From positions 1 to 44,707 of the forward strand of contig JAFZOS010000046.1 of assembly GCA_017550535.1 (NCBI GenBank): a stretch of 44,707 bases of DNA, given 5' to 3'. Position 1 is the stretch's first letter. Each line of letters begins with the position of its first letter. Made by a program: the position numbers and the translations under genes. The notes under the pieces are model-generated. The model ran no database searches and was not told where the DNA came from. It saw only the letters and a program-made list of their open reading frames with translations. This document shows positions 1,828-28,931 of the stretch, piece by piece. This stretch comes from Lachnospiraceae bacterium. Lineage in GTDB: Bacteria > Bacillota > Clostridia > Lachnospirales > Lachnospiraceae.

Positions 1828-3009
1828 ATGAACGACAACGATATAACCGCAGCGCTGGCTCTTACATCCGATTACGACAGGCTTGCCATCGTCGATGCCG
1901 AAACAGGCAGGGTTCTTGGCGACCGCAGCCTTAATATCTTCTCATCGCATGTTGAGGGCGATTTTGAGCGCCTGGGCTATGACGGACAATTGAACAGCTT
2001 TATCGAGCAGCTTGTTGTCGACGAGGACAAAAACAAGGTCAGGATCTCGATGGAACCGGGGCTTATCACGACCAACCTTTATACCAACAAGGCACACTAT
2101 GTCAATTACCGGGTGTGCATAGACGGGAAGGTTCGTGAATACCAGACAAAGTTCTGCCGTATGCCGTCTTCGGAAGGAAGCCTGCTTGCCGTCGGGACCT
2201 GCGATATGAGCGCACCCTTAAGCGAATACCTGCACCGCGTTGATACCGCAAGGCGCAGGGCCGAAACGATAAACGATGAAAAGAACAGGTTCCTTCATAA
2301 CCTGTCCCATGACATAAAGGCACCCCTTAACGGCGTCATCGGAATGATGGAAGCCGCAAAGCGCAATATCTCTGATATAGACAAGGTGAGCAGATATCTC
2401 GAAAGCATGGAGAGTCAGTCAAGCCACCTCCAGTCCCTCTTAAATGATGTCATGGATATAAGCAGCCTTGAGGATAACCATGTGTCCATAATCAGGCAGC
2501 CCATGAACATGACCATTTTTTCAAAGGACTGTGTTGCCGTTGCAAGGGAATCAATTCAGGATAAAAACGTTAACCTAACGACTGAATTTCCCGCCTTTGA
2601 GCATCCGTACGTACTAGGAGACAAGGTGCGCCTTCAGAAGGTGATCGTAAGCATCCTTGACAATGCCATAAAGTTCACCCGCGACGGCGATATAATATTC
2701 TTCAGGATATTCGAGAAACCTCTCGAAGACAAAAAGGTCGAATACAAATTTGAAATAGAGGATACGGGCATAGGCATGCGTCCCGAATTCCTCGAGCACA
2801 TCTTCGATCCCTTCGCGCAGGAATTCAAGGGCTCGGAAACAGCCGACCGCGGCTCGGGCTTAGGGCTTACCATAACCAAAAAGCTCGTTGATCTTATGGG
2901 CGGCAGGATAAAGGTCCGCAGCAGCCAGGGGATAGGTTCCAAATTCACGATAACCTTGGCGTTTGATATTGATGAGGAAACGGAAGAAGCATTAAAAGAA
3001 AAACGTTAA
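1828..3009 (+). CDS. Soluble sensor histidine kinase (PAS-like, HisKA, HATPase_c)
   Basis: This is a 393-residue protein with no hydrophobic segment, so it is predicted to be cytoplasmic. Residues 1-130 look like a PAS-type sensor (inferred from length and pattern only). The dimerization/phosphoacceptor helix carries LSHDIKAPLNGVIGM with His161. The ATP-binding domain shows the N box (LDNAIKFT, Asn279), the G1 box (DTGIGM from Asp312), an F box (FDPFAQ) and the G2 box (GSGLGLTI, 342-349). The architecture matches hybrid-type kinases, but no receiver domain is fused and no response-regulator gene lies nearby. It follows ddh by 20 bp. Its TAA stop (3007-3009) coincides with the -35 of the sigma-28 promoter for the VWA flagellin. 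Signal and partner are unknown. Confidence 0.88.
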   Translation: MNDNDITAALALTSDYDRLAIVDAETGRVLGDRSLNIFSSHVEGDFERLGYDGQLNSFIEQLVVDEDKNKVRISMEPGLITTNLYTNKAHYVNYRVCIDGKVREYQTKFCRMPSSEGSLLAVGTCDMSAPLSEYLHRVDTARRRAETINDEKNRFLHNLSHDIKAPLNGVIGMMEAAKRNISDIDKVSRYLESMESQSSHLQSLLNDVMDISSLEDNHVSIIRQPMNMTIFSKDCVAVARESIQDKNVNLTTEFPAFEHPYVLGDKVRLQKVIVSILDNAIKFTRDGDIIFFRIFEKPLEDKKVEYKFEIEDTGIGMRPEFLEHIFDPFAQEFKGSETADRGSGLGLTITKKLVDLMGGRIKVRSSQGIGSKFTITLAFDIDEETEEALKEKR

Positions 3010-3033
3010 GTAATCCTCCGATCGTGCCGATAT
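3007..3033 (+). promoter_or_regulatory. Sigma-28 (FliA/SigD) promoter for the VWA flagellin
   Basis: TAAG (3007-3010), a 15-base spacer and GCCGATAT (3026-3033) match the SigD consensus TAAA-N14/16-GCCGATAT at nearly every position. Transcription would start near 3040, leaving a leader of about 74 bases before the ATG at 3114. The -35 overlaps the stop codon of the kinase gene. This puts the VWA flagellin in the late flagellar regulon. Confidence 0.8.
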
Positions 3034-3059
3034 AAAAGTGTACGGATACAGATGGATTT

Positions 3060-3073
3060 GAGAAAGGATTCTC
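3060..3073 (+). promoter_or_regulatory. Candidate CsrA-binding hairpin in the VWA-flagellin leader
   Basis: GAGAA-AGGA-TTCTC forms a perfect 5-bp stem with the four-base loop AGGA. GGA exposed in a hairpin loop is the hallmark of high-affinity CsrA sites. Further GGA triplets lie at about 3044, 3054 and inside the Shine-Dalgarno CGGAG (3102-3106). In B. subtilis hag, one such hairpin plus a site over the Shine-Dalgarno lets CsrA block translation until FliW removes it. csrA and fliW are both in this window. Confidence 0.5.
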
Positions 3074-3113: not shown

Positions 3114-4526
3114 ATGGTAATTTCTCATAATCTGTCAGCTTTTAATGCCAACAGGCAATTAGGTATGGTTTCATCCCGTAAGGCCAAGGCAACAGAACGC
3201 CTTTCTTCGGGATACAGGATAAACCGTGCCGCAGATGACGCTGCAAGTCTTACCATCTCCGAAAAAATGCGCTACCAGATAAGAGGATTAAACCAGGGTT
3301 CTGATAACATCCAGGACGGTATTTCAGTGTGTCAGATCATGGATGGAGCATTGGCCGAAACACAGGACATAATGCACAGGATGACCGAGCTTACCGTCAA
3401 AGCATCCAATGGTACATTGGATGTACAGGACAGGCAGGCCATACAGGACGAAATAAACCAGCTTATCTCCGAGCTTGACAGGACCACCAAATCTACCAAT
3501 TTCAATGAAAAACAACTGCTTTCACCGGTTGATCTGGAAAATACCCCCATAAATCCAAACGGCGGCAAGGCTGATATCATTTTCGTTATAGATAACACCG
3601 GAAGTATGGGATCATATGTAAATAACGTCATGAATAATCTTACGTCATTTGCCGACGGACTCTCAAATTGCAATATACAATACGGTGTCGTTGAGTTTGG
3701 CGACACTGACACAACATTTTCCAAAAGCCCTTTCATGTCATCTCATTCAGAAGTAATTAACCGACTGAAACAAATACACTGCAGCGGCGGCGGAGATTAT
3801 GAGGAAAAGGCACTGGAAGGCATCAGCGATGCAATAAACTATCCGTTCAGAAGCGATGCGGCTGCCAAGGAAGTGATTCTGATAACCGATGCCCCTTATC
3901 ACGATGCAAACAAAGACGGCAAGTCTTCCTTAACCGATACCAATGTAGCTCAAAATCTGCAGAATAAAGGAGTAAGATTATCGGTAGTAACCAGCAGCAG
4001 TTGTATGAATCTATACAAGAGCAGGCTGGCAAACGGCTCGGTACTTAATATCAGTAATAATTTCCACGATTCACTGATGAAACTTGCCGGAGATATTTCT
4101 GAAGCTGCCGGGGAAGTGATACATAAGAACCCCGAAGATATCAATATCCAAATGAGCAGTGTTGTTGATAATACTTTAACCATACACACATACAATGTTA
4201 CGCCCGAATCATTGGGGATATCAGATTTGATCTGCACGACCGAAGAAGATGCCAGGATGGGTATTGATAAGGTAAGGCAGGCATCCGCAAAAATATCAGA
4301 AATCCGCTCCAACATAGGAGCGGAACAGAATGCATTGGAACATGCTTACAAAAATAACACAAATGCGGCTGAGAATACACAGGCGGCAGAATCACGCATG
4401 CGTGATATGGACATGGCCGCAGGCATGGTTGAATTTTCCAGGGAAAATATACTTGAGCAGGCCGGACAGGCCATGCTTGCTCAGGCGAATCAGATCAATC
4501 AGGGGGTACTGTCTTTACTACAGTGA
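3114..4526 (+). CDS. Flagellin with an inserted von Willebrand factor A domain
   Basis: This 470-residue flagellin keeps the polymerizing ends. Residues 1-140 are the N-terminal D0/D1 helices ([20 protein letters not shown], 30-49). Residues about 345-470 are C-terminal D1/D0, ending [18 protein letters not shown]. In place of the usual variable domain, residues about 153-335 form a VWA fold. Strand 1, ADIIFVIDNTGSMGSY, carries a MIDAS motif (Asp160, Thr162, Ser164). GGGDYEEKALEGI (225-237) supplies the second MIDAS loop, and VILITDAPYH (254-263) has Asp259. Residues 264-275 resemble a calcium loop. There are five cysteines (73, 186, 223, 297, 374), unusual for flagellin. A sigma-28 promoter, a leader hairpin and a GGAG Shine-Dalgarno precede it. 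Inference: a filament subunit, probably minor, showing a metal-dependent adhesive domain on the surface. The flagellin and VWA assignments are firm; the ligand is unknown. Confidence 0.93.
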   Translation: MVISHNLSAFNANRQLGMVSSRKAKATERLSSGYRINRAADDAASLTISEKMRYQIRGLNQGSDNIQDGISVCQIMDGALAETQDIMHRMTELTVKASNGTLDVQDRQAIQDEINQLISELDRTTKSTNFNEKQLLSPVDLENTPINPNGGKADIIFVIDNTGSMGSYVNNVMNNLTSFADGLSNCNIQYGVVEFGDTDTTFSKSPFMSSHSEVINRLKQIHCSGGGDYEEKALEGISDAINYPFRSDAAAKEVILITDAPYHDANKDGKSSLTDTNVAQNLQNKGVRLSVVTSSSCMNLYKSRLANGSVLNISNNFHDSLMKLAGDISEAAGEVIHKNPEDINIQMSSVVDNTLTIHTYNVTPESLGISDLICTTEEDARMGIDKVRQASAKISEIRSNIGAEQNALEHAYKNNTNAAENTQAAESRMRDMDMAAGMVEFSRENILEQAGQAMLAQANQINQGVLSLLQ

Positions 4527-5508: not shown

Positions 5509-7740
5509 TCAGATATCGTAATTCTGTATCATCACGGGTTTGCCGGCATTTCTGAACATATGAGCAAGATGACTCCCGTCTCCGTAATACGCATTGCATC
5601 CGGATACAAGTTCATCGTATCCGGTTTCTTTTTCACTTACTATCGTAAATGCGCTGTCATCCGCAACACTTCCCAATAACGAATCATATTCCTTAAGAAG
5701 ATCCGTATCGTATTTCTCAAGCTCCTCATCGATAAGCCTGCCCCGCAGAATGACAAACTTCATCCTGTCTTTGTTTTCACCAAATGTTTCAAGTACGGAT
5801 TTTATCTTATCAATTGCTTTTTCCCTGTATAAGAGGATATTGCTGAAATCAGGATAATAAAGCATCGTTTTTTCTTCCGATTTCGCATCATCATCTGTTT
5901 CATCATCCAAAACAACTATCTTATCCTCCCAAAGCCGCCTTGTTTCCTCACCCGCAAAATCACACAGCTTATCTATATATGTATCCTTAAGAGTTTCCGA
6001 CCCAAGCACGACCGTATCGGCATTTATCACACCGGGGACTGTGCAGTAGTAGCTCATGTTGATATACTCACGCTCGTTTTCACGGGTAAAATCATATGTT
6101 TCAAACCACGGGATATACACAAGGCTGTCTGTAAATTCAAGCAGTCGGTCGCTGTAGAAAAACGGCGGCACCGAGGTTTCTAAATTCTGGTCGTCGTAAG
6201 GATTCTGTATGATGATCTTATCGGGATGATGTACCGCGTAATCATATCTGTCATAGTGTGTAAGGACAACATCCCCGGGATAATCATCCGTAACATACTG
6301 CATATCCTTAAGCCGCCCCATGTAGTCCTTATAGTAGTAAGGTACGGGTATGACATAAACATCCGTATCGGGATCATCGGCCGCTTTCCTGTATGTTTTT
6401 TCAAATCTACTCCAATATGCACCCTTAAACGGCAGGAACAGCACTTCCCTGCGCCTCCTTATCATAGCGCAGATATCATCAAACAGTTTTTTTGCCTCTG
6501 TATAACCGGCGTTTCCCTGCGTCAGCAAATACAATTCCTCACACAGCTTCTCAAGATGAGCAACTATATCATAGCCTTCGCCCTTTACGGCTTCCATGTA
6601 GGTTCCAAGATCTATCGCGAGCTGCTGCATATCCGCACATATTCCTACAACATCATCACCTTTTAGTCCCTTTGATAACCGTATCATTTCATTAAGGCAT
6701 TCGTTTACCGTATCCCTGTATGTTTCACCGGATCTTTCGCGCTCATCTACCTTCTTTTTCCGCCTGTCTGCCGCCTCAAGAAGTTCCTTTGCATCCACCC
6801 TGTATTCCGGCAGATCAAAATCAAGCACCTCCTGTAGCTGGCTGCGTGACTTTGCAAAGAAGGGGTAATCATGTCCACCCGCATTCTTGTATAGCATCAT
6901 GTAATCACCGTAGCAGATCCTTAAAGCATCATCATAGATGAGCGGTACGGGTATGGTGCCCGTTTCAAACTTAAGCTCCACGTTATCATCATAATAAAAC
7001 TTTGGAATTATCTTCTCATCATTAAGCCCCCACGGCATCATCTGTACAAGGTTTTGTGCCCTATCCTTCTCATTTAGAAACGACGCAAAAAGTTCCTCAG
7101 CCTTAATATCAAGCCTGCGCCTTATTTCCTGTTCATCAGGCCCCGCGGGCACATTTATACCAAGCTGTTCCTTAAGTGTTGTAAGCTGTTCTTTAAGCTT
7201 TGCTCCCTTAAGCACACCCCCTTGTATGTCATCCGATAACTTAAGCACATACTGCGCTTTCTTCTTCATCACTTCCTGATTGTCCTTATTATGGGACATA
7301 TAATCAAGTATGAACACATCCATGCCGACCACATACGGAAAGCCATGGTATTTATCAAGATGCTCCTGTTCAAAGCATATCCTGCCCTTCGCAACGATGT
7401 TTGCGGTAAACTGCGTGTGCTCCTCCCGGTTTTTGAGATTATATACTTCATATCCATCGGGCAGCAGTGCAACTCCCTCTTCAAGGAACCGGTTGTAATC
7501 ATCCCTTAGCATACAAATATCAAAGTCATCGTCCCAGGGAACAAATCCTCCATGTCTCAGTGCACCGAGGAATGTGCCCCAGGCCGCAAAATACCTGATG
7601 CCAAGCTCCTCACAAACACGGTCTACATCGTTTAAAACCTGTACCTGCGCGCCCCATGCCTGCTTCACGCAAGCAGGAATGTAGAAGCCTTCACGTACTT
7701 CATCTTCATAAAATTGTTCGGTAAGTTCTATCCTGCTCAA
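5509..7740 (-). CDS. LicD-family phosphotransferase fused to a glycerophosphotransferase-like domain
   Basis: The protein has 743 residues in two parts. Residues about 25-330 are a LicD domain with the nucleotidyltransferase-fold signature WGTFLGALRHGGFVPWDDDF (54-73), acidic residues at 70-72 and 74. LicD enzymes transfer phosphocholine or similar phospho-groups onto surface sugars. After a helical stretch, the C-terminal part from about residue 450 (FLPFKGAYWSRFEKTY, YVIPVPYY, THYDRYDY, IIIQNPYD, FFYSDRLLEFTDSLVYIPWF) resembles the CDP-glycerol:glycerophosphotransferase-like proteins found beside LicD in Firmicutes. The start is a TTG (7738-7740). An in-frame TAA lies two codons upstream and the first internal Met (77) falls after the catalytic motif, so TTG is the only credible start; AGG of GCAGGT lies about 10 bases upstream. 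Predicted role: phospho-alcohol decoration of the glycan. Confidence 0.8.
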   Translation of the reverse strand: MSRIELTEQFYEDEVREGFYIPACVKQAWGAQVQVLNDVDRVCEELGIRYFAAWGTFLGALRHGGFVPWDDDFDICMLRDDYNRFLEEGVALLPDGYEVYNLKNREEHTQFTANIVAKGRICFEQEHLDKYHGFPYVVGMDVFILDYMSHNKDNQEVMKKKAQYVLKLSDDIQGGVLKGAKLKEQLTTLKEQLGINVPAGPDEQEIRRRLDIKAEELFASFLNEKDRAQNLVQMMPWGLNDEKIIPKFYYDDNVELKFETGTIPVPLIYDDALRICYGDYMMLYKNAGGHDYPFFAKSRSQLQEVLDFDLPEYRVDAKELLEAADRRKKKVDERERSGETYRDTVNECLNEMIRLSKGLKGDDVVGICADMQQLAIDLGTYMEAVKGEGYDIVAHLEKLCEELYLLTQGNAGYTEAKKLFDDICAMIRRRREVLFLPFKGAYWSRFEKTYRKAADDPDTDVYVIPVPYYYKDYMGRLKDMQYVTDDYPGDVVLTHYDRYDYAVHHPDKIIIQNPYDDQNLETSVPPFFYSDRLLEFTDSLVYIPWFETYDFTRENEREYINMSYYCTVPGVINADTVVLGSETLKDTYIDKLCDFAGEETRRLWEDKIVVLDDETDDDAKSEEKTMLYYPDFSNILLYREKAIDKIKSVLETFGENKDRMKFVILRGRLIDEELEKYDTDLLKEYDSLLGSVADDSAFTIVSEKETGYDELVSGCNAYYGDGSHLAHMFRNAGKPVMIQNYDI

Positions 7741-7786
7741 ACTTTATTACCTGCCCCGTTCAAACTTCCCTGAATACTTATCTTCT

Positions 7787-8986
7787 TCATACCGGACCCG
7801 CAGTATCAAGCATCGTCCTTATCCTTTCATCATAGCAAAACTCACGGGAAACCTTTTCATGTCCCCTCTTTGCTATTTCAGTACGGATTTCGGGATTATT
7901 AAGATAATATGATGCTTTTGCATACATATCCTCGATACTTTCGTACATGATCATCTCTTCGCCGTCAATAAAGCATTCAGCAAGCTCCGGCTGATAATTT
8001 GAAAGCAGGAATCCTCCCGCGCCCATTATATCAAGAGCCCTTAACGGTATACCCGAACGGATGCAGCGAAGAGTCATATTAAGGTTTATATCGCTTGCCT
8101 TAAACACCTTGGGCATCTCATTATCGTAATCGACGGTACCCATGTATGTGATTTTATCAAGCAGTTCATTTTTCTCGCGGCTGTACAGCTTGACATCATA
8201 ATGGTTTGCAAGGAGCTTAAGCGCCAGCAGCCTGTCTTCCCTTGTGATCTGTGCTGCCATTGCATACGACAGGGCTTCCCTGCTTATATTGAGTACCGGT
8301 GCATGATCCCCATGATCACCCGGGTGTTCCCTGCGGTATTCCATGGTCTTATCATAAACTGTTCTGTTGATATCATTAAGCAGCCCGTCCGTCAATAATT
8401 CATCGATCACATAATACCCGTATATCTTTGACTGAGCCTTCATGAGCGCGTCAAGATAGCCCTGATGGAATTCATCCAGGATACTGCGTATATTCAGCAT
8501 TTCGGACCCATACAGATTGCCTACGAAGCTGACCTGTGCCGAATATTTCTTACGCTCTGCGGCACTTAAGATCATACCGTCAAGCCGTTTTACATTAACG
8601 GCAAGGGGAAGGTGATATACATTATCAAACCCCTTGTTCTTATAGCCAAGAACCTGCTCCCTGTCATACATGAAAGCATAATTGCATGGCAGTCCGAGCG
8701 TCCGTTCTATATCAGGCACATCAAGCGGTGCATCATATGACCATGATATATATTTAACGGAATTCCTGTTACAGCATTCCGCAATTACCGGAAAAAAGTT
8801 CGTAGAGTACACGAACCCGTAGTTTCCGTCCTTAAGATATCCCGCAAATTCTCCCGCAAATCCGTCATCGACATTAACATCCTCAAAACGGTGCTTAACG
8901 ATCCTGCACTCACAGCCCGCATCCCTGAAGGCCTCCACTATATCCCTGTGATTATAGCTTGCCCACTCGTATATCAGTACTTTCAT
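7787..8986 (-). CDS. CgeB-like GT-B glycosyltransferase (copy 1)
   Basis: The protein has 399 residues with the two-Rossmann layout of the DUF3880 plus Glyco_trans_1_2 proteins, whose best-known member is B. subtilis CgeB. The N-terminal half has SWSYDAP (81-87), YAFMYDREQ and VSFVGNLY (152-159). The C-terminal half has the family signature INLNMTLR (300-307), SGIPLRALDIMG (311-322) and GGFLLSNYQPEL (324-335). A central helical insert with ALMKAQSKIYGYYVI is shared with neighbouring copies. No clear Shine-Dalgarno precedes the ATG and the upstream gene stops 8 bases before it, so translation probably depends on re-initiation. Cytoplasmic; donor sugar unknown. Confidence 0.82.
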   Translation of the reverse strand: MKVLIYEWASYNHRDIVEAFRDAGCECRIVKHRFEDVNVDDGFAGEFAGYLKDGNYGFVYSTNFFPVIAECCNRNSVKYISWSYDAPLDVPDIERTLGLPCNYAFMYDREQVLGYKNKGFDNVYHLPLAVNVKRLDGMILSAAERKKYSAQVSFVGNLYGSEMLNIRSILDEFHQGYLDALMKAQSKIYGYYVIDELLTDGLLNDINRTVYDKTMEYRREHPGDHGDHAPVLNISREALSYAMAAQITREDRLLALKLLANHYDVKLYSREKNELLDKITYMGTVDYDNEMPKVFKASDINLNMTLRCIRSGIPLRALDIMGAGGFLLSNYQPELAECFIDGEEMIMYESIEDMYAKASYYLNNPEIRTEIAKRGHEKVSREFCYDERIRTMLDTAGPV

Positions 8987-8994
8987 ATCATCAT

Positions 8995-10200
8995 TTAAAT
9001 CACCGACAGTATCTCGCCAAGCCGGCGCTCATAGGTGTGCTCCTCCTGCGTTTTTTTAAAGCCGTTTGAAGCAATTTCGCGGCGTTCCTTATCATGCATA
9101 AGATAATACTCGATCTTATCAAGCATATCTTCCCTACTGCAATATGATACATAATCCTCGCCATCAACATAACAGTCCGAAAAATCGGCCTGATAATTAC
9201 TTAAAAGAAATCCTCCCGAGCCCAATATCTCGAACGCACGCAGCGGGATCCCGGAATGAATGCTCCTGAGTGTTATGTTTAGATTAATACCGACCATATT
9301 ATATAAAACGGGAGCAAGGTCGATATGATCGATCGATCCGTGGTTTAAAACTCCTTTTATCGATAGTTTCGGATCCTGCGTATACAGATCAACTGCCGGC
9401 TTACCTTTTTGGGAAAAACGCTCTCCTATCGCGGTAAGATAATCATATCTTTCCCTGGCTGTTATCTCCCTGTTGATCGCATATTCCGCAAACAGGAATG
9501 CACGGCTGGCCACACTTTCATTGTTCGGCTGCATCGGAAGGTCCTTTGACATTTCATCCATAAGAGCATCTGTCATCATGCTCTTTATGAAATTGTATCC
9601 GTACACCTTGCTCTGCACTGCCATCAGCCCTTCGAGATATCCCCGCGAATGATCGGATATGTCATGTATCCTGCGATAAAAGGTATGCTCCTCGTCATAC
9701 ATCGAACCAACAAATGCAATCCTCGATACCGGCGTAAGGCCCCGGGTTTTAAAAAGATCACGATTATGCTTATCGTTCACCGATGCCATACGCCTTGAAG
9801 GTGCTGCCGCAAGCGGCAGATAATGTACTGTTTTTATGTTGTTTTTTGCAAATTCGGCATACTGTTCCTTATCAAACACAAAGATATGATTGGTTTCAAA
9901 TATAACCGTATATGAGTACAGCATCACAAATGGATTATCATACACCCACGATATGTATGGTGTATTGTTTTCATGACATGCTATCGCAACGGGCGGATAG
10001 TAATTCGATGAAAAGACCGCATCCGCACGGGCTTCGTTTATCTTATCCGTTATCTTCTTCTCAAGTGTCTCATCATGATAAACATCATTTGAAGAATACG
10101 GCATCACGGTAAGCTCATGACCTAATGCCGATATCGCTTCTTTAACGTCCTCATTTCCAAAACTTTTCCATTCTATGTACAGTATCTTTTTTCCGGCCAT
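8995..10200 (-). CDS. CgeB-like GT-B glycosyltransferase (copy 2)
   Basis: The protein has 401 residues and is a paralogue of the adjacent copy. SWVYDNPFV, IFVFDKEQY, IAFVGSMYDEE, a central GLMAVQSKVYGYNF segment, then GINLNITLRSIHSGIP and GGFLLSNYQADF occur in the same order and at nearly the same positions. It lies in the minus-strand operon 13 bases after the GT-D gene, with AGGATAGGGA just before its ATG. Tandem duplication of this family followed by divergence is the simplest reading, so each copy may add a different residue or use a different acceptor. Specificity cannot be read from sequence. Confidence 0.82.
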   Translation of the reverse strand: MAGKKILYIEWKSFGNEDVKEAISALGHELTVMPYSSNDVYHDETLEKKITDKINEARADAVFSSNYYPPVAIACHENNTPYISWVYDNPFVMLYSYTVIFETNHIFVFDKEQYAEFAKNNIKTVHYLPLAAAPSRRMASVNDKHNRDLFKTRGLTPVSRIAFVGSMYDEEHTFYRRIHDISDHSRGYLEGLMAVQSKVYGYNFIKSMMTDALMDEMSKDLPMQPNNESVASRAFLFAEYAINREITARERYDYLTAIGERFSQKGKPAVDLYTQDPKLSIKGVLNHGSIDHIDLAPVLYNMVGINLNITLRSIHSGIPLRAFEILGSGGFLLSNYQADFSDCYVDGEDYVSYCSREDMLDKIEYYLMHDKERREIASNGFKKTQEEHTYERRLGEILSVI

Positions 10201-10213
10201 TTTCCCTATCCTG

Positions 10214-11263
10214 TCAATCGATCACGGCTACAATCTGCGCTTTGTAATCATCGTCATCCGGCGCTTCGATCAAACGTCCCGCAACCCTTTCATCCTTACT
10301 GCAATATTTATAAGGTATATCCACACCGTAAAGATTGGGGAGTTTTCTTAAATACGCCTCGTATATAAGATCCACATGCCCGATATCGATTGCCTGATAG
10401 CCCTCCTTATAAAGATCATACGCAAGTACCGTTGCCGTAGGGCCAAGGGCAAGTAGGATCAGTTTATCCTTTGGCTGCCTAAGCGCCGCATTCATTATAT
10501 CATCATATCTGTCAATAGCATTTTCAGCCGGTCCGAGGATACGCTCTATGCTCCTGCAGTTATCAAACAGATCGTTCCCAACTCCCATACAGGTATGTAT
10601 ACCTTCAACAAAAACACAATCCCTGTCATTCCATATATGCTTAAGTTCCCTGACATCATCATCACTTTTTATGTTATGGAACAATGCATCTCCGTACTGT
10701 TTATCCGGATCAAGCAGTCCTGCATGCAGCTTCCGTACCATAGGACGCATATATGCGCGTACTCCGTCTGCCTCTTCTTCCGGTATGTCAAACAGGTTCG
10801 TATAAAATAAAGGATGGAGTCCTATCATCAATCCCCCTTCATTTGATGTCAAAACTTCCTCAAGCCGCTTTCCGAGCAGCTGTGACTCACCTTGAAAGTT
10901 CCACCTTTTCTGCCCTACTATAGCGGCAAATTCCCCATCGCCCAGCCTTGCTAACGACTTCTTTTCATCTATGATAAGCCTTCTGGTCTCAAGATTGGAA
11001 AGAATATGAGGTTTAAAGAAAAACGTATGATAATCCGGATCCTGCATTTCATATGGCAGGCTGTCAATTCTGTATCTGTTTATACAAGCATATTGTTTCA
11101 GTGCATTAAGTTCATCCGAAAATTCACGTTGTGTATCACCAAACTGCGACATCATATCAATCGCCTGATTCAGCAGCTTATTAACAGAAGCTTGCCATTT
11201 GCGCAGTTCTTCGTTTTCATTTTCAAGTCCTGCCATTCTCTGTAATAACTCATCATTCGACAT
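10214..11263 (-). CDS. GT-D fold glycosyltransferase with an N-terminal coiled coil
   Basis: The protein has 349 residues. Residues 1-60 are predicted helical and coiled-coil-like (ELLQRMAGLENENEELRKWQ). From about residue 78 comes the GT-D (former DUF1792) domain. Its hallmark SLARLGDGEF (103-112) contains the Asp-Gly-Glu triad (109-111) that binds metal in this fold. The C-terminal half has LILLALGPTATVLAYDL and AIDIGHVDLIYEAYL, also typical. Known GT-D enzymes extend O-glycans on serine-rich adhesins of Gram-positive bacteria, so protein O-glycan extension is a reasonable inference. The coiled coil may mediate oligomerization. It sits 6 bases after the GT2 gene in the same operon; the Shine-Dalgarno is weak. 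Confidence 0.82.
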   Translation of the reverse strand: MSNDELLQRMAGLENENEELRKWQASVNKLLNQAIDMMSQFGDTQREFSDELNALKQYACINRYRIDSLPYEMQDPDYHTFFFKPHILSNLETRRLIIDEKKSLARLGDGEFAAIVGQKRWNFQGESQLLGKRLEEVLTSNEGGLMIGLHPLFYTNLFDIPEEEADGVRAYMRPMVRKLHAGLLDPDKQYGDALFHNIKSDDDVRELKHIWNDRDCVFVEGIHTCMGVGNDLFDNCRSIERILGPAENAIDRYDDIMNAALRQPKDKLILLALGPTATVLAYDLYKEGYQAIDIGHVDLIYEAYLRKLPNLYGVDIPYKYCSKDERVAGRLIEAPDDDDYKAQIVAVID

Positions 11264-11269
11264 CGTGTT

Positions 11270-12085
11270 TCAGTCCATCCCTTCACTCAAATACAATTCC
11301 AGCATTTTTCCGACTTGCGGCAGCAATTCATTCCTTTGAGCATGATTTAACAGACTCCTTACAGCATTGTCAAAGCATCCGTTTGACATCAGGATATCCC
11401 TGTCTAATGCTATTATTTTACACCGGCTTTCGTAATAATCTGCTGCTCCTGATGACACTCCTCCCGAAATCATTTCAGCCTCAATCAACACCTCGGGAAC
11501 CATGCCTATCCTATACCTGTCCGCAAATCTCAAAGCAAATTCCCAATCCTCCAGTGCCTTAAGCTCCGTATTAAAACCTCCCAAAGCAATAAAGCACTCT
11601 TTTCTTATAAGCATTGTCGGTGTATCAAAGCAATTCTTTTCTGCAAGTGTCCTTGATATATTTTCCGGTTCAACGGTTCCGGTTATCAATTCACTTCCGT
11701 CATCAAAAACAGCCTTTATCGGATGGGATACCATATCTGTATCGTGGTTATCATTAAGATATTCAACCTGCTTTATCAGTTTGTCACTGTGCCATATATC
11801 ATCACTGTCCTGAAATGCGATCCAATCACCTTTTGCCATCTCAACTCCCGTATTCCTCGCCGCAGCCGGACCACCGTTTACAGGCATACGATGATATATT
11901 ATCCTTTCATCAGGAATGCCTTTAACAACCTTCTCTGTATTATCTGTTGAACCGTCATCAACGATCAATATTTCCGTGATCTCAAAACCTTCATCCTGCC
12001 CTGTTTGATCAAGCACGCTTTGTACCGCATGTCTTATATATTTTTCCCTGTTGAATGTCGGGATGATAACACTGATCCTGTACAT
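11270..12085 (-). CDS. Glycosyltransferase family 2
   Basis: This compact GT-A enzyme has 271 residues. VSVIIPTFNRE-type strand 1 (ISVIIPTFNREKYI) is followed by ILIVDDGSTDNT (40-50), NGGPAAARNTGVEMAKGDWI and the metal-binding QDSDD (92-96). The second half has TPTMLIRKECFIALGGFNTE and ALEDWEFALR, the acceptor-side GGF/ED-x-[DE] signature. A strong Shine-Dalgarno (AAGGAGGG) lies 4 bases before the ATG. It is the second gene of the seven-gene minus-strand operon. Probably adds one sugar to the flagellar or surface glycan. Confidence 0.88.
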   Translation of the reverse strand: MYRISVIIPTFNREKYIRHAVQSVLDQTGQDEGFEITEILIVDDGSTDNTEKVVKGIPDERIIYHRMPVNGGPAAARNTGVEMAKGDWIAFQDSDDIWHSDKLIKQVEYLNDNHDTDMVSHPIKAVFDDGSELITGTVEPENISRTLAEKNCFDTPTMLIRKECFIALGGFNTELKALEDWEFALRFADRYRIGMVPEVLIEAEMISGGVSSGAADYYESRCKIIALDRDILMSNGCFDNAVRSLLNHAQRNELLPQVGKMLELYLSEGMD

Positions 12086-12094
12086 TGACCCTCC

Positions 12095-13288
12095 TTATAG
12101 CCCGTCTGCCGATGGGACATGCACCCTCTCATATTCACGGATATAGGATAGCATATCCTCCCAGACATCCAGATCGATATATCCCTTTTGTGATATATGC
12201 TCACCAACATCTCGAATGATCCCGCTGTACTCTTCAGGAACGCAATGAATTGCCGAAACTATCATCGCTATAACAGAATACTCCCCTTTTATGATCTTGT
12301 TGACTATATATTCCGGGACTTCATATTCAAACATAACCCGGATCCAGTCCCACTTCATCCTGTTCCATTTTTTTTCAATGACAGACCATAGCGATTCAGA
12401 ATCCTCCGTATTTAAAAACATACGTATATCAAACTCACATTCCAGAGCAGAAATCTCCAAAGAGAAATATATTATCAAAAGATCCTGGTTGAAGTATATG
12501 GCATTCCCAACATCATCCAGAATTTTCTCTACCTCTGACATACTCCTATCATTAATTCTGTTCTTCAATGTATCTGCAATAGTTTCGCACAGATGATACA
12601 GCTTTTTATCGTCATTTTCATCGCCGGGATCATATCCGTACCATTTACAGAAATTCATCTTATTTTGGTAGTATGTCTCAAGATTGAGGGGGCCAAAATC
12701 GTGAAATATCCACGGTTCACCCTGCTTTATAACTACGGTCTTTAATCCCTTCTCCCGATATCTTATGCATTGACTCAGATCATAAAAATGAAACGCATCT
12801 ATCCTTTCATCCCAGTCAATATCACAGCTTGTTGCCATCAGCATCCCGTCTACATAATCAGCCTCCTCATATTCTCCCACGGGGTCGGAAATGTCAGGCT
12901 TTACCCCGACCAGTCCCAATCCGCTGAATGTCCCTATGGAATAACATCCCCCTACGTCCAAGCTGCTCCATGCCTGAGCATTTATAAGCTTTCTTGTTCC
13001 CGCAATCCCTATGATCCCAATATTGTCAGCTTTATTAAAACATGAAATAATCTCATTGATAAAATCCCGATTTATGATAAATACATCCTGATGGAGAAAA
13101 ATCTTATATTTTGCCTTCGACTGCTTCAAGGCATCGTTATAGCCCGATGTCATGCTTTGGGGATTCCTTATCGGTACTACCGAAACCGAAACCCCTTCCG
13201 GCATACGAAGTTTTTCGATATAGTACCTGCATTCATCCAAGTAGTCATCATCATTTGTACATATCACAAAAACAATCTCATTTTCCAC
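12095..13288 (-). CDS. StrF-like glycosyltransferase with a helical C-terminal extension
   Basis: The protein has about 397 residues. The N-terminal 220 resemble the StrF/Glyco_tranf_2_5 family: FVICTNDDDYLDEC, SGYNDALKQSKAKYKIFLHQ, DVFI and YVDGMLMATSC, with HQD in the DXD-like position. The last 170 residues are helical and unassigned. No ATG is available. A GTG at 13294 opens the frame, but the Shine-Dalgarno AGGAG (13296-13300) is too close to it. The next GTG, at 13288, is spaced 7 bases from that site and is chosen here. The N-terminal domain is paralogous to the product of 33345-34028, which lacks the extension. It is the first gene of the left-arm operon, behind a promoter at 13349-13378. 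Confidence 0.75.
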   Translation of the reverse strand: MENEIVFVICTNDDDYLDECRYYIEKLRMPEGVSVSVVPIRNPQSMTSGYNDALKQSKAKYKIFLHQDVFIINRDFINEIISCFNKADNIGIIGIAGTRKLINAQAWSSLDVGGCYSIGTFSGLGLVGVKPDISDPVGEYEEADYVDGMLMATSCDIDWDERIDAFHFYDLSQCIRYREKGLKTVVIKQGEPWIFHDFGPLNLETYYQNKMNFCKWYGYDPGDENDDKKLYHLCETIADTLKNRINDRSMSEVEKILDDVGNAIYFNQDLLIIYFSLEISALECEFDIRMFLNTEDSESLWSVIEKKWNRMKWDWIRVMFEYEVPEYIVNKIIKGEYSVIAMIVSAIHCVPEEYSGIIRDVGEHISQKGYIDLDVWEDMLSYIREYERVHVPSADGL

Positions 13289-13329
13289 ACCCACTCTCCT
13301 CTATTAAATACAGTTCTCAATTTTCCCTG

Positions 13330-13378: not shown

Positions 13379-13401
13379 GCGTGATCGGAGGCTTTTTCAA
13401 A

Positions 13402-14553: not shown

Positions 14554-14556
14554 TTT

Positions 14557-15759: not shown

Positions 15760-15896
15760 TGCCGCTTATAGTCCCCTCATTAAAAGAATAAAACCATATG
15801 GCACATTCAACCGATATATGGTAATTTTACTATATAAGCACATTATATGGAATATGCCACACGCATTTTATTCCTAAATTCTCATAAAGGACAAAC

Positions 15897-18065: not shown

Positions 18066-18084
18066 ACAAATTCTCCACACCGGC

Positions 18085-20534: not shown

Positions 20535-21347
20535 TTAGCCGAGTAATGAGAGAACACCCTGGTTAGACTGGTTAGCCTGTGCAAGCATTGACTGACCTGC
20601 CTGTGCAAGAATGTTGTTCTTGCTGTACTCAACCATCTGTGAAGCCATGTCGGTGTCACGGATCTGAGACTCAGCTGCTGTAGTATTCTCAACTACGTTG
20701 TCAAGATTCTTGATCGTGTGCTCAAGACGGTTCTGGATAGCACCGAGGGTTGACCTCTGTGAAGATACAGATGCGATAGCATTCTTAATCTTTTCCATAG
20801 CCGAGCCTGCACCAGCTTCAGATGTAACTGAAAGTCCGCTTACACCGATGCTTGATGAAGCCATTGAGCTGATTGAAAGAGTAATAGTATTGCTGCTGTT
20901 AGCGCCAACCTGAAGGTTCTTTCCTGAGAAAGTTCCATCCAGAAGGTTCTGGTTATTGAACTGAGTTGAGCTCTTAACACGATCGATCTCGCTTGTAAGC
21001 TGATCTACCTCAGCCTGGATAGCCTTCCTGTCGTCTGTGGTGTTAGTTCCGTTCTTAGCCTTAACTGCAAGCTCGTTCATCCTCTGAAGCATATCCTCAA
21101 CTTCGTTGAGAGCACCTTCAGCCGTCTGTACCAGAGATACACCGTCCTGAGAGTTTGCTGAAGCCTGTGTAAGACCACGGATCTGACTCCTCATCTTCTC
21201 ACTGATCGTTAAGCCTGCTGCATCATCAGCTGCCCTGTTGATCTTGTAACCTGATGACAACTTCTCAGTTGCCTTAGCCTGTGAAGAAGTTGTAACACCT
21301 AACATCCTGTTTGCGTTTGCCGCTGTCATATTGTGCTGTACTACCAT
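20535..21347 (-). CDS. hag: Flagellin, short form without a variable outer domain
   Basis: This is a 270-residue filament subunit, near the minimum for flagellin and similar in design to B. subtilis Hag. The N-terminal D0/D1 block ([54 protein letters not shown]) and C-terminal block ([46 protein letters not shown]) are joined by only about 50 Ser/Gly/Thr-rich residues, the likely O-glycosylation surface. No cysteine is present. A sigma-28 and a sigma-A promoter lie upstream. The leader contains a hairpin with a GGA loop and a very strong AAGGAGGA Shine-Dalgarno, and an intrinsic terminator follows. Probably the major flagellin. Synthesis is likely controlled by CsrA/FliW, with FliS as export chaperone. 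Confidence 0.97.
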
Positions 21348-21472: not shown

Positions 21473-21499
21473 ATATCGGAGCAAGTTGGGAATACTTAA
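21473..21499 (-). promoter_or_regulatory. Sigma-28 promoter for hag
   Basis: On the minus strand TTAA (21496-21499), a 15-base spacer and TCCGATAT (21473-21480) match the SigD class; the -35 may also be read as TAAG with 14 bases. The same sequence pair recurs at 24603-24629. The start point would be near 21466, about 118 bases before the ATG. Confidence 0.75.
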
Positions 21500-22132: not shown

Positions 22133-22510
22133 CTATTTATTTGCCAGCTTCATGGCTTCCTTCCATGTGTCACGCATTGTATGGAGATGTTCGGACACCT
22201 CCTTGAGGATCTCATTATCCTTGGTCATATTGGCTTCACGAAGCCTTCCCATAATGTAATTGTAAACATTGTTGAAGTCATTGGCTACCGGATACTTGAA
22301 ATCAAGGGTCATCTGAAACTCCTCGATTATCCGCTCAACCTTCATGATGTTATCATGAGCCTTCTGAATGTTTCCTTCCTCAATTGCATTCATAGCAATG
22401 TTACAGAACTTGATAGCCCCGTCATAAAGCATCAGTGTAAGTTCCTGAGGCGAAGCCGTCATTATCTTGTTCCTGTTGTACTGAGCATATGCATTGTTTT
22501 GCATGGGCAT
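22133..22510 (-). CDS. fliS: Flagellin-specific export chaperone FliS
   Basis: The protein has 125 residues, the normal FliS length. YAQYNRNKIMTASPQELTLM at the N-terminus, LYDGAIKFCNIAMNAIEEGN and the C-terminal amphipathic helices (LHTMRDTWKEAMKLA) are typical. FliS binds the disordered C-terminal D0 region of flagellin in the cytoplasm and stops premature polymerization. In B. subtilis it also strengthens FliW-flagellin binding, linking it to the CsrA circuit encoded nearby. It follows fliD by 38 bp and precedes the fliT-like gene by 9 bp. Both flagellins in the window keep the C-terminal end that FliS recognizes. Confidence 0.95.
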   Translation of the reverse strand: MPMQNNAYAQYNRNKIMTASPQELTLMLYDGAIKFCNIAMNAIEEGNIQKAHDNIMKVERIIEEFQMTLDFKYPVANDFNNVYNYIMGRLREANMTKDNEILKEVSEHLHTMRDTWKEAMKLANK

Positions 22511-22548: not shown

Positions 22549-24051
22549 TCAACCTCCAAAGAAGCCGGCTATATAGTTCTGCTGTGAATTAAGGGTTGCC
22601 ATTGCACTCTCCATCTTGGAGAACTGCTTATAGTAACGGTCCTCAATGGATTTAACATAATCATCCCACTTGGTAACCTTGGATTCGGCCTTCGTTATAT
22701 CTTCCTTCATCTGCTTGTCATCATAAAAGCTTCCGTATGACCTTGTGCTTGAGCTCTTACTGAATTCCTGCAGCTTGCTGTACATATTCTTTGCAAGCTT
22801 TGAGAAGAATTCCGTTACGGCCCCGGGATTTGCTGCTATGGCTGCCTTTAACTTATCCGCATTGCCGGATGTCTCATCATCGTCGGGATCACCGTCAATA
22901 TGAAAAGCGTTACGTTCATCCTCGGGCGCCGTGAAATAACTCAAAGTATTGATGCCGAAGCTCGACAGACTGTATGTTTTGCCATCTATGTCAAACGTCT
23001 GGCTCATGGAATTCCTGAGAATCGATGATAAGGAAGACAGATTTCCGTCCCTCCTTAACAGGGATTCACTGACCTTATCTTCCCACTTCTTTATCTCAGA
23101 ATCACTGAGAGCCTCTTTTTCCTCATCAGTAAGCGGGTCATAACCCTTATTGGCCGGAGCATTATACAGCTTGGTCATTTCATTGATAAGTGAACTGTAA
23201 TCCTTTATAAATGACTTAACCTTGTCATAAATGGCATCATAATCTGTGTCCGTAGTTATGGACAGCTGACCTTCCGTTTTAGCCTTTGCGGTTATCGTAA
23301 GTCCGTTGATACTGAATGTATTGCTTGAGCTTGTAAACTCGGCACCGTTTAACTTGATCCTTGCATCGGAACCCGGTAACTTGACCGGTCCTTCATACCC
23401 TTCAGTACCTACCTTGTCGGGATCTGCCTTAAGTCCCAATGCAACCAGTGCATCGTCTCCCCCGGAAGTAGTCGATTCGAACGAAAAATCGCCTTCCGTT
23501 CCGGATTTTTTGGCGCTTACAAATATACGTCCGTTGCCTTCATCAAAGCTCGCGGTAAGTCCTGCGGTATTAAGGCGGCTTACGAATTCACTTACCTTCA
23601 TATCAGCCGTAATATCAAAGCTCTGTCCGTTTACTTTGATCTTGCCCAGATCGGAGGAAGCATTCCCAATAAGGCTTCCGATCGTGGTATCCTTGGTCGT
23701 TCCTGCCTTAACCTTTGCGCCGGTAAGATATGCCGTCTTAGCGGTATCCAGAACCTCAAGTGTCTGCGAACCGTTAACTGCTCCGTCTGAAGATACAACA
23801 GATGCTTTCGTCTCATCCGATACTGTTGTCTTCTTGCTTGCATAATACGACGAATACTGCATGTTTGCAGCATATTTATTGGTAAAGCTCTTAATCTTCT
23901 TATTAAGATCCTTCCATGCGTCCTGTTTCTGCTCAGCCCTCTTCTGCTTTTTGGTGTAATTGGCTCCCTTGGTCTTATATGCCTTAACCAGATCCTGGAC
24001 CATTGCCTCGGTATCCATACCGGAAGCCATACCTGCTATCCTTATTGCCAT
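22549..24051 (-). CDS. fliD: Flagellar filament cap protein FliD
   Basis: The protein has 500 residues. The N-terminal coil region RIAGMASGMDTEAMVQDLVK is diagnostic. The centre is Ser/Thr/Asp-rich, with DTDYDAIYDKVKSFIKDYSS leading into the C-terminal FliD_C domain (INEMTKLYNAP, FGINTLSYF), ending MESAMATLNSQQNYIAGFF. Five FliD subunits cap the filament and fold incoming flagellin; the cap can also contact surfaces. It lies 11 bases after flaG and is transcribed with flaG, fliS and fliT from the sigma-28 promoter at 24603-24629. The length is within the family's range and no truncation is seen. Confidence 0.96.
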   Translation of the reverse strand: MAIRIAGMASGMDTEAMVQDLVKAYKTKGANYTKKQKRAEQKQDAWKDLNKKIKSFTNKYAANMQYSSYYASKKTTVSDETKASVVSSDGAVNGSQTLEVLDTAKTAYLTGAKVKAGTTKDTTIGSLIGNASSDLGKIKVNGQSFDITADMKVSEFVSRLNTAGLTASFDEGNGRIFVSAKKSGTEGDFSFESTTSGGDDALVALGLKADPDKVGTEGYEGPVKLPGSDARIKLNGAEFTSSSNTFSINGLTITAKAKTEGQLSITTDTDYDAIYDKVKSFIKDYSSLINEMTKLYNAPANKGYDPLTDEEKEALSDSEIKKWEDKVSESLLRRDGNLSSLSSILRNSMSQTFDIDGKTYSLSSFGINTLSYFTAPEDERNAFHIDGDPDDDETSGNADKLKAAIAANPGAVTEFFSKLAKNMYSKLQEFSKSSSTRSYGSFYDDKQMKEDITKAESKVTKWDDYVKSIEDRYYKQFSKMESAMATLNSQQNYIAGFFGG

Positions 24052-24675: not shown

Positions 24676-24891
24676 TTACATTATATTTTTCAGCGCCTCC
24701 GCTGCATTTGTATCCATCGCCTGTTTATTGGCCTCCTGGATCTGGAGATATACCTCCTTACGGTAAATGGGGATCTCCTTGGGAGCATTGATACCCACTT
24801 TAACCTGATCGCCCCTTATGTCAAGTATCGTAACCTCTATGCAATTGTCAATGACAAGTGATTCATCCTTTTTCCTTGATAATGCCAGCAT
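24676..24891 (-). CDS. csrA: Translational regulator CsrA
   Basis: The protein has 71 residues, within the 61-75 normal for Gram-positive Csr[41 protein letters not shown] and the [12 protein letters not shown] helix are the standard dimeric beta-barrel elements; the N-terminal Leu-Ala-Leu-Ser-Arg and the [15 protein letters not shown]-binding edge are intact. CsrA binds GGA in hairpin loops and blocks ribosome access, most famously on hag mRNA. It follows fliW by 2 bp. FliW binds CsrA and lifts repression once flagellin is exported. Both flagellin leaders in the window contain suitable sites. Confidence 0.97.
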
Positions 24892-24893
24892 AC

Positions 24894-25352
24894 CTACTCA
24901 CCTGCCTTTTCCTTAGCTGCTTTTAATATCTCATATATCGGGAACTTAACCTGATACTTATCATCGTCAATGATAAGCTGTCCGGCCTTGCGGGACTCAC
25001 TGTTTATGATGATAGGACCCTTAAGGTTTACGGACATCTTCTCGATCTCCTTGGGAACCGTGATGGTAACGAGAACGAGCATATTCTCCTGAGTGATATC
25101 CCCAAGGGGTTTAAGCAGCTCATCCTCAATGTCCGGATTGTAATCCGGTATTATCGACAGGGGGTCAACTACGGGCATTGCAAATGCGGGCTCCTGTATC
25201 GACTGCAACCATTTAATGCTCCCGTTGCCTTCACCGTCATGTATGAGCAGGAAATCTTTAAGCTCCGGAAAGCCTATAATACCCTGCGGAAAAGTGATAA
25301 GCTTGCCCTCATCAACATTTATCTCCCCAAATAATTTTGTTTCTATTGTCAT
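24894..25352 (-). CDS. fliW: Flagellar assembly factor FliW
   Basis: The protein has 152 residues, the usual length. [40 protein letters not shown] and LVLVTIPK-like segment ([20 protein letters not shown]) with [16 protein letters not shown] are characteristic. FliW binds either flagellin or CsrA: when flagellin accumulates in the cytoplasm FliW is occupied and CsrA represses flagellin translation. It lies 41 bp after flgL, with a GAAGGGAGAAGGG Shine-Dalgarno, and 2 bp before csrA, which ensures co-expression of the antagonist pair. Whether FliW also binds the VWA flagellin is open; the C-terminal region it recognizes is conserved there. Confidence 0.96.
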
Positions 25353-25393: not shown

Positions 25394-26992
25394 TCACAGA
25401 TAATTCAGCAAGGAAGCCTTTGCAACCTTTGCTGCTGCCTGCTGGGCTGCTTCGAGCGCAAGTTCTGCGTTCTTAAGATCTATTGCCGACTCTGTAAGCT
25501 CAACGTTTATATTCTCATCTGCGAGTTCCTTGAAGTTCTCAAGCTGGTCGCTTACCCTTGACCTTGTAAGCTCAAGCCTTGCATCAAGGCTTCCCATCGC
25601 AGCTATCTTATTGTTCAATTCATTTGAATATCCGTCGAATATAGTGATCGCATGCGAGAACATATTCTGCATCTTTTCATTGTACAGATCATATTCTTTC
25701 CTTACCGCATCCTTAAGCTCCGCAAGTTTTTTAACATCTGCCGGATTGGTTATGCTTCCGCTCTTTTCAAGTTCCTCAACCTTTTTAAGCTTATCGTATG
25801 CATCCTGTGTGCTCTGGGTAACCTTTAACAGTTCATCCACATCCCTTGCTATCGAGGTTTTGTATACTTCATCAGCATTCACATTAATCTCTATCTTCTG
25901 GTTATATGCTATCTCGTACTGTATCTTCTGATCCTTGAAATCCGCATAAAACCTGTCTGGATCGGTTACTGCCTTGGTCTCATCCTCACTGTAATTATAC
26001 CTTACAAGCCTGGAAGCATCAGCATCATATGACTGTGCCGCAAAATAGTGTTCCGGCCTGGGATCGTTCTTGTTCCACTCTTTCTTTGAATACTCAAGGC
26101 TCGCATTTGAACCCTCTTTACGCATCTGTGCCGCCACGTTCTTACCAAGGATCAATTCACCGGTAGTGGTAATAAGCCTGACTTCATCATCACCGATCTT
26201 GGTATAAAGATCATCATTTGCCTTTTGATTGGTGCCAAGTTTCTCTACGCTGAAGGTAGCTGCTGTATATATGGTATTGCCGGCCTTATCTTTTATAACA
26301 AAATTCTGACTGAGAGCCCCTGTTGTACCGTCTTCGTTTATCTTAAGCTGGGAATCCGTCAGGTTATCATATGCAAGCCTTAACCGGGCCACCTCATTAT
26401 TCTTTACATTGGTCTGATTATCGTCAGTCGAAACATATTGTCCAATATCCTTTACATCCTTATCATATGAGCCCGAAATGTAGTTCATGGTCTCAAAATC
26501 GTCACTTGTGAAGTTCTGGATCATGGTATACAGCTTTGTCTCATTGGCTGTAAATGTGAGTGACTCTCCGGTCCTGTAGCCTGTAAATACAGTCCTGCCC
26601 GCATAGTCGGCATTGCCCGATGAATATATCTGATCCTTTAATGCCTTCAGGTTTTCAAGGATGTTCTTCCTGTCTTCTGCCGTGTTGTCATCGGAAGCGC
26701 CCTGGGTAAGATACTTCTTAACATCATCAAGCACACCTGCAGTCTGCTCAAGCGCCGTCTGGGTTATATCAAGCCACGCCTGCGCATCCGGGATATTCTT
26801 TCCGTGATACTGGTTGATCTCGGAGATATTGTTGTTAAGCCTCAGTGCCCTTATCGCAATTATGGGATCATCCGAAGGCCTCGTGATCTTTTGACCCGTT
26901 GCAACCATAGTGTTGTACTTGTCGGAGTATTCCTTGTTTAAGATTATGTTGGATTTTGTGTTATTGTTTATTATCCCGTTTGTTATACGCAT
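25394..26992 (-). CDS. flgL: Hook-filament junction protein FlgL, enlarged
   Basis: The protein has 532 residues, well above the roughly 300 typical of FlgL. MRITNGIINNNTKSNIILNK, ATGQKITRPSDDPIIAIRAL and the C-terminal LKNAELALEAAQQAAAKVAK are the flagellin-like D0/D1 ends. The extra length is a central insert (about residues 150-400) with a repeated theme of Asp/Asn/Tyr-rich strands, presumably surface-exposed. FlgL joins the FlgK layer to the filament. It is encoded directly after the second flgK (30-bp gap), and the operon continues into fliW and csrA. Large FlgL proteins occur in clostridial relatives, so the size is unusual rather than anomalous. Confidence 0.92.
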   Translation of the reverse strand: MRITNGIINNNTKSNIILNKEYSDKYNTMVATGQKITRPSDDPIIAIRALRLNNNISEINQYHGKNIPDAQAWLDITQTALEQTAGVLDDVKKYLTQGASDDNTAEDRKNILENLKALKDQIYSSGNADYAGRTVFTGYRTGESLTFTANETKLYTMIQNFTSDDFETMNYISGSYDKDVKDIGQYVSTDDNQTNVKNNEVARLRLAYDNLTDSQLKINEDGTTGALSQNFVIKDKAGNTIYTAATFSVEKLGTNQKANDDLYTKIGDDEVRLITTTGELILGKNVAAQMRKEGSNASLEYSKKEWNKNDPRPEHYFAAQSYDADASRLVRYNYSEDETKAVTDPDRFYADFKDQKIQYEIAYNQKIEINVNADEVYKTSIARDVDELLKVTQSTQDAYDKLKKVEELEKSGSITNPADVKKLAELKDAVRKEYDLYNEKMQNMFSHAITIFDGYSNELNNKIAAMGSLDARLELTRSRVSDQLENFKELADENINVELTESAIDLKNAELALEAAQQAAAKVAKASLLNYL

Positions 26993-28927: not shown

Positions 28928-28931
28928 TCAA

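Follow-up and report, generated by a model that had tools for sequence, protein, structure and literature searches.

Why a flagellin gene of a Lachnospiraceae bacterium should encode a von Willebrand factor A (VWA) domain in its middle, and what such a domain might do on a flagellar filament, are the questions raised by the locus described here. The window, i.e., the whole stretch of 44,707 nucleotides analyzed, encodes this protein on the plus strand and a flagellar gene cluster on the minus strand.

Domain architecture of the VWA-bearing flagellin

The gene and its parts are located as follows:

3114..4526, plus strand: VWA-bearing flagellin gene, an ORF of 470 aa (Pfam domains)
3114..3524, plus strand: flagellin N arm, residues 1-137 (Pfam)
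3570..4133, plus strand: VWA domain, taken here as residues 153-340, with Pfam matches within 152-307 (Pfam, profile searches)
4263..4520, plus strand: flagellin C arm, residues 384-469 (Pfam)

The original prediction of complete flagellin ends flanking a VWA pattern was confirmed by Pfam, with all three parts of the 470-aa protein exceeding the respective cut-offs. Flagellin_N was assigned to residues 3-137 (2e-37, 128.7 bits vs. a cut-off of 26.6) and Flagellin_C to residues 384-469 (5e-21, 75.2 bits vs. 23). Residues 152-307 were matched by four VWA-family models, each above its curated cut-off, including VWA_4 (residues 156-307, 8e-13, 48.7 bits vs. 27), VWA (residues 154-293, 2e-11, 44.9 bits vs. 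23.8), and VWA_2 (36.4 bits vs. 27). A domain-architecture search for Flagellin_N, VWA, and Flagellin_C had been proposed; four more genomes share this architecture by Pfam. Among PDB sequences, the arms matched flagellins (best match 9hpz, 5e-72), and residues 149-227 matched collagen VI alpha-3 (2e-14).

Alignment with three ordinary flagellins located the boundaries of the insert: the flagellin pattern ends directly behind the LL in the D1 hairpin, and resumes at the IQMS/LQVGA strand. The exit of the D1 hairpin is the start of the outer domains in longer flagellins; hence, the VWA domain really stands in place of the variable region, as had been claimed. Five cysteines, reported together with possible intra-domain disulfides, are present at positions 73, 186, 223, 297, and 374. 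The disulfides were dropped, because only 186, 223, and 297 belong to the VWA domain, Cys 73 and 374 being located elsewhere in the protein, and 297 is not conserved; the relative in genome G644 has no Cys at any of the five positions.

Predicted fold and metal site

The three loops of the metal site were assigned as follows:

3591..3605, plus strand: loop 1, D160-N-T162-G-S164 (sequence, alignment of fusions)
3786..3797, plus strand: loop 2, GGGD 225-228 (alignment of fusions)
3885..3890, plus strand: loop 3, T258-D259 (alignment of fusions)

A profile built from four fusion VWA domains matched 29 distinct PDB sequences at E up to 0.001, among them integrin alpha-1, integrin alpha-2, anthrax toxin receptor 1, ITIH4, and collagen VI, and an 18-row VWA profile gave 31 matches at E up to 1e-6, mostly to integrin beta-3 and beta-8. 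On the basis of these profiles, residues 153-340 are predicted to adopt a VWA fold.

The VWA motifs named beforehand were all found, namely DNTGSM (D160, T162, S164), GGGD (225-228), and TDAPYH (T258, D259, H263). The assignment to the MIDAS type stood for loop 1, which has the DxSxS/DxTxS form, and for the Asp of loop 3, but not for loop 2. A Thr in loop 2 is the rule for a textbook MIDAS; here, G227 lies opposite the ITIH4 Thr in the alignment, and a Gly-Asp pair stands where Thr is usual. Judged from these alignments, the metal site of the window protein is not a textbook MIDAS. Across the five flagellin fusions, the Asp and the final Ser of loop 1 (DNTGS) are kept in all, and D259 of loop 3 is kept in four. 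The fusion of G1171 features GGIE for GGGD and TN for TD, i.e., Asn at the position of D259. Since it lacks both GGGD and the loop-3 Asp, metal binding is presumably not kept in every VWA flagellin.

Flagellar gene cluster and other flagellins of the genome

The remaining flagellar and neighbouring genes of the window, all on the minus strand, comprise:

7787..13294, minus strand: five genes of the glycosyltransferase type, lying between the two flagellins
20535..21347, minus strand: ordinary 270-aa flagellin (profile/Pfam match)
22133..22510, minus strand: fliS (Pfam)
22549..24051, minus strand: fliD (Pfam)
24676..24891, minus strand: csrA-like gene (assigned by visual inspection of the sequence)
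24894..25352, minus strand: fliW (Pfam)
25394..26992, minus strand: flgL-like gene (Flagellin_N by Pfam; flgL call from position and size)
27023-30638, minus strand: adjacent pair of FlgK-type genes encoding 634 and 568 aa (FlgK_D1 in each)

Together they outline a filament-assembly cluster encoding FlgN, two FlgK-type proteins, an FlgL-type protein, FliW, a CsrA-like protein (by eye), FlaG, FliD, FliS, and the 270-aa flagellin. LicD-type and glycosyltransferase-type genes adjoin the flagellins at 5509-13294 and 19305-20465, as seen in a scan of the ORFs between the cluster and the VWA flagellin outside 13381-19275; they probably serve flagellin or surface glycosylation.

Four Flagellin_N frames were counted in the window genome: the VWA flagellin, the 270-aa flagellin, one frame on contig C22, and the FlgL-type gene. 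Shorter flagellin frames of 258 to 288 aa also occur in G022, G1122, and G644, the frame of G022 being 279 aa long with both arm models present. As each of these genomes also encodes a shorter flagellin, the VWA flagellin is one of several in all four.

Two of the genomes with a VWA flagellin, G644 and G1122, additionally encode flagellins matching the flagellinolysin model (L107, L110, and L113). At the cut-off of 205, L110 passes (224), and L107 (187) and L113 (91, its frame being cut by the locus) fall below. Furthermore, the same two genomes contain very long frames with Flagellin_N (L111, L113, L116, and L117; 1098 to 1697 aa), which are apparently giant flagellins with large inserts, and no other Pfam domain was named in the parts of them that were covered.

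Promoter and leader

Upstream of the VWA flagellin and of the ordinary flagellin, the following elements were detected:

3006..3033, plus strand: sigma-28-type promoter TTAAGTA-N14-CCGATAT before the VWA flagellin (motif scan)
3039..3050, plus strand: small hairpin TGTA-CGGA-TACA, possible CsrA site (hairpin scan)
3060..3073, plus strand: hairpin GAGAA-AGGA-TTCTC, possible CsrA site (hairpin scan, folding)
21473..21499, minus strand: second copy of the promoter motif, ahead of the ordinary flagellin (motif scan)

The claim that the gene has its own sigma-28 promoter was thus supported by a motif common to both flagellin genes, which we take to be of the sigma-28 type from the sigma-28 consensus. 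The pattern TTAAGTA-N12-15-CCGATAT occurs twice in the window vs. 0.01 expected, and two copies were reached in 0 of 100 shuffles; these values apply to a pattern that, like that of the hairpin, was defined only after inspection of the sequence. The motif also precedes the VWA flagellin gene of the G022 relative and the gene in G772 for an FlgK with a VWA-type insert; the loci harbouring the L033 and L065 genes yielded no copy of it. Searching the whole genome with a looser pattern yielded seven sites vs. one for the reversed control. One of the seven falls within fliW, and four lie outside the window, including one on contig C22 that also has the strict form; no flagellar genes were seen by eye near these four.

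The leader hairpin described originally was recovered at 3060-3073. The leader as a whole folds no better than shuffled sequences (z +0.73; 155 of 200 shuffles fold equally well or better). A GGA-loop hairpin with a perfect 5-bp stem is present in all three leaders counted (VWA flagellin, ordinary flagellin, and G022 gene; those of L033 and L065 were left out), and 19 such hairpins occur on both strands of the entire window; as an indication of CsrA control, this hairpin count is stronger than simple counts of GGA in the leaders, which give weak values (P 0.03 and 0.07). The flagellin gene hag is described as being under CsrA-FliW control (PMC6529632, PMC6070490). By analogy, the GGA-loop hairpins, together with fliW and the csrA-like gene in the cluster, suggest that the leader of the VWA flagellin may be controlled in the same way.

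Distribution of VWA flagellins

In total, five flagellin-VWA fusions were found: that of the window, two Lachnospiraceae relatives (G022 and L033, the latter in genome G1122), one in another family (G644), and one in another class (G1171). Within the genus including the window genome and G022, a VWA match was obtained for 2 out of 37 genomes, both being fusions. The family draw gave VWA matches in 24 of 397 genomes, and after screening of all 25 match loci flagellin arms were seen only at the window's locus; the genus, family, order, class, and phylum draws overlap, so that their counts must not be added up. Profile searches of genome contigs recovered no relative with the window's VWA domain alone, and nine loci with two VWA rows, two of them with flagellin arms (L033 and L032, which is part of the G022 contig).

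In the order draw, 105 out of 392 genomes contained a total of 119 matches, and the one further fusion (G644) was found among the 37 matches screened (30 fetched loci and 7 picked by frame length), the other 82 being mostly frames near 700 aa. The class draw (49 of 391 genomes, 66 matches) gave a flagellin fusion in none of the 30 loci fetched. The phylum draw (12 of 388 genomes) was screened for all 13 matches and provided one flagellin fusion, G1171, as well as one FlgK with a VWA insert, G1433 (by eye). For Pseudomonadota, 223 of 378 genomes matched, and neither a fusion in the 30 loci fetched nor a VWA match in their 51 flagellin-model ORFs was detected. Three full-model matches from this draw were rejected as VWA fusions, two of them reading as ordinary long flagellins. 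Likewise set aside were most of those VWA matches of the family, order, and class draws that were read by eye, representing TSP3-type proteins, lipoprotein-like extracellular proteins, and Hsp70-VWA fusions. A protein of about 700 aa that is frequent in the order (L046, L069, L074, and others) combines an Hsp70-like part (by eye) with a C-terminal VWA domain of the same broad type.

Sequence constraint on the VWA domain

Between the window genome and G022, the VWA domain is identical at 128 of 188 positions (68%), the N arm at 95 of 137 (69%), and the C part at 36 of 56. As a control, an ordinary but longer flagellin, taken from both genomes, gave 50 of 101 aligned positions for the central region and 92 of 137 for the N arm; the difference between the VWA domain and this central region was significant (Fisher p 0.002). 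A second control, the 270-aa flagellin compared with that of G1122, gave 16/46 and 104/137, respectively. Compared with L033, the VWA domain (100/187, 53%) lags behind the flagellin core (N arm 84/137, 61%; C part 39/56). All ten metal-site positions are identical in the three orthologs, against 87 of the 188 VWA columns (P 0.0003), and nine of ten are identical over four rows; these ten were picked as the family motif, and any VWA domain tends to keep its motifs. The pN of the VWA domain is 0.21, with synonymous change saturated. Overall, such constraint on the domain and on the motifs of its metal site is consistent with a functional domain.

These values bear on two rival explanations. The VWA domain might simply be a bulky outer domain altering immune-receptor or phage recognition without having a specific ligand. 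Flagellin outer regions are indeed highly variable. In them, 61 domain types were counted (Eckhard 2017, PMC5595980). However, a VWA domain conserved like the N arm and better than the control central region, with a metal site invariant among the orthologs, makes this explanation unlikely. The second rival, a gene whose product is not made or not assembled, or which is a decaying relic, would account for its rarity within the genus, but the intact frame, the promoter motif, and the low pN render it highly improbable.

Evolutionary history and FlgK cases

In the tree of the N and C arms, the three Lachnospiraceae fusions formed one clade (100/100), and the G644 fusion grouped with the flagellins of its own genome (100/100); all trees were small, with hand-picked rows, and left out the ordinary flagellins of G1171 as well as L103. 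Holding these four fusions as one clade was rejected (p-AU 0.0009 for N and C arms, 0.0018 for the N arm alone), and so was holding the Lachnospiraceae trio together with G1171 (p-AU 0.0025); G644 and G1171 held together were not rejected (p-AU 0.445). Since the arm trees reject these joint clades, a VWA domain was acquired in at least two lineages of flagellin, by fresh insertion or by exchange. In the VWA tree, a single clade of all fusions was not rejected (p-AU 0.163 and 0.236), and the VWA domain of G644 was placed on a long branch. The VWA domains of the G1171 flagellin and the G1433 FlgK were sisters (100/100), and these sequences point to the movement of a VWA domain between two axial proteins, flagellin and FlgK.

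Screening of 187 loci for FlgK arms (138 VWA-model ORFs, repeats included) revealed two cases: L133, which is also L180, and L103. The G1433 protein (L133:100-2547, plus strand) combines FlgK_D1, Flg_bbr_C, and a VWA insert (VWA_4, 29 bits vs. a cut-off of 27). The other (L103:721-3000, minus strand) is encoded in G772; Pfam identified FlgK_D1 and Flg_bbr_C in this FlgK-type protein, whose VWA-type insert is divergent. No Pfam VWA match was obtained for L103 at E up to 0.1; its VWA call rests on a custom profile (2.5e-9), and by eye loop 1 is kept as DLSDS and loop 3 reads TA. A five-row profile of axial-protein VWA domains gave one match above 200 bits, the insert, in each of six genomes, the next best match reaching 88 bits.

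Flagellar proteins seem to have acquired VWA domains on more than one occasion, and this repeated insertion, together with the FlgK cases, suggests selection for VWA display on flagella. More broadly, and only tentatively, the axial proteins of the flagellum may have repeatedly received VWA modules in their outer parts (flagellin in at least two lineages, the hook-filament junction protein FlgK in two genomes, and one VWA type common to flagellin and FlgK). In that view, the flagellum would be a scaffold used again and again to carry metal-dependent binding domains, perhaps force-sensitive ones, both at the base of the filament and along its length.

Proposed function

We consider it somewhat probable, from the sequence features described, that the VWA protein is an accessory flagellin and that the filament shows scattered VWA domains acting as a multivalent metal-dependent tether. 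The protein would be exported as a flagellin and copolymerize with the 270-aa flagellin, scattering VWA domains over the filament surface. Each domain would hold a divalent metal via D160, T162/S164, and D259, with D228 replacing the usual loop-2 residue, and the metal-loaded domain would bind an acidic group of a ligand such as a host or plant glycan, a matrix protein, or the surface of a neighbouring cell. Export, assembly, and surface display follow from flagellin biology, and metal-dependent ligand binding from VWA family membership; display on the filament is likely, and adhesion is putative. The adhesin-flagellin interpretation given originally was partly supported: the insert at the outer-domain site, the promoter resembling that of the main flagellin, and the 270-aa flagellin in the genome all speak in its favour; the metal site departs from a textbook MIDAS.

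The main rival, to which we assign a rather low probability, holds that the VWA domains bind each other or the glycans of neighbouring flagella, stiffening or bundling filaments for viscous or solid surroundings instead of binding a host. The glycosyltransferase genes between the two flagellins would fit, as would the reported effect of outer-domain dimerization on motility in viscous settings (PMC8931119, PMC10256154). A parallel is CmoA of Paenibacillus, an extracellular vWFA protein tied to a flagellar gene cluster; it is encoded after yvyC-fliD-fliS, and is described as required for moving across hard agar, on which it forms clusters of cells (PMC5072692). This case indicates that group movement, and not host binding, can be the role of a VWA protein linked to flagellar genes. 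However, CmoA is a separate secreted protein with a signal peptide and IPT/TIG repeats, and has no flagellin arms (PMC5072692). Adhesive display is favoured over bundling.

Comparison with known systems

The fusion type itself is not new, as it was already counted in print in 2017: among 26,587 flagellins, vWFA was listed for 21, being the eighth most frequent domain of the hypervariable region (Eckhard 2017, PMC5595980). The VWA domain lies in the hypervariable region there, as in the window protein, and the fusions are known from that source as a table count (Table 1, PMC5595980). No study of a VWA flagellin or VWA FlgK was found in the open-licence literature at the level of titles, abstract openings, and selected passages, and neither is described in the relevant passages of PMC11003981, PMC12826043, PMC5072692, PMC3543383, PMC8306008, and PMC7643111.

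The MIDAS adhesin Bd0875 of Bdellovibrio is likewise a bacterial VWA surface protein, and the Asp of its metal site is described as needed for function; unlike the window protein, it is a lipoprotein located outside any filament (PMC11003981). Flagellinolysin also carries a functional domain in the flagellin outer region and is described, in C. haemolyticum, as occurring beside ordinary flagellin in one filament (PMC5595980, PMC7643111). Its insert is an HExxH peptidase, whereas the window protein has no HExxH motif and reaches only 37.2 bits vs. the cut-off of 205. Enzymatic flagellin inserts are reported to function once filaments have been assembled (PMC5595980). With a VWA flagellin, such functional inserts would come to include a binding domain presented along a rotating filament, and the use of flagella for adhesion or bundling by such bacteria would become directly testable.
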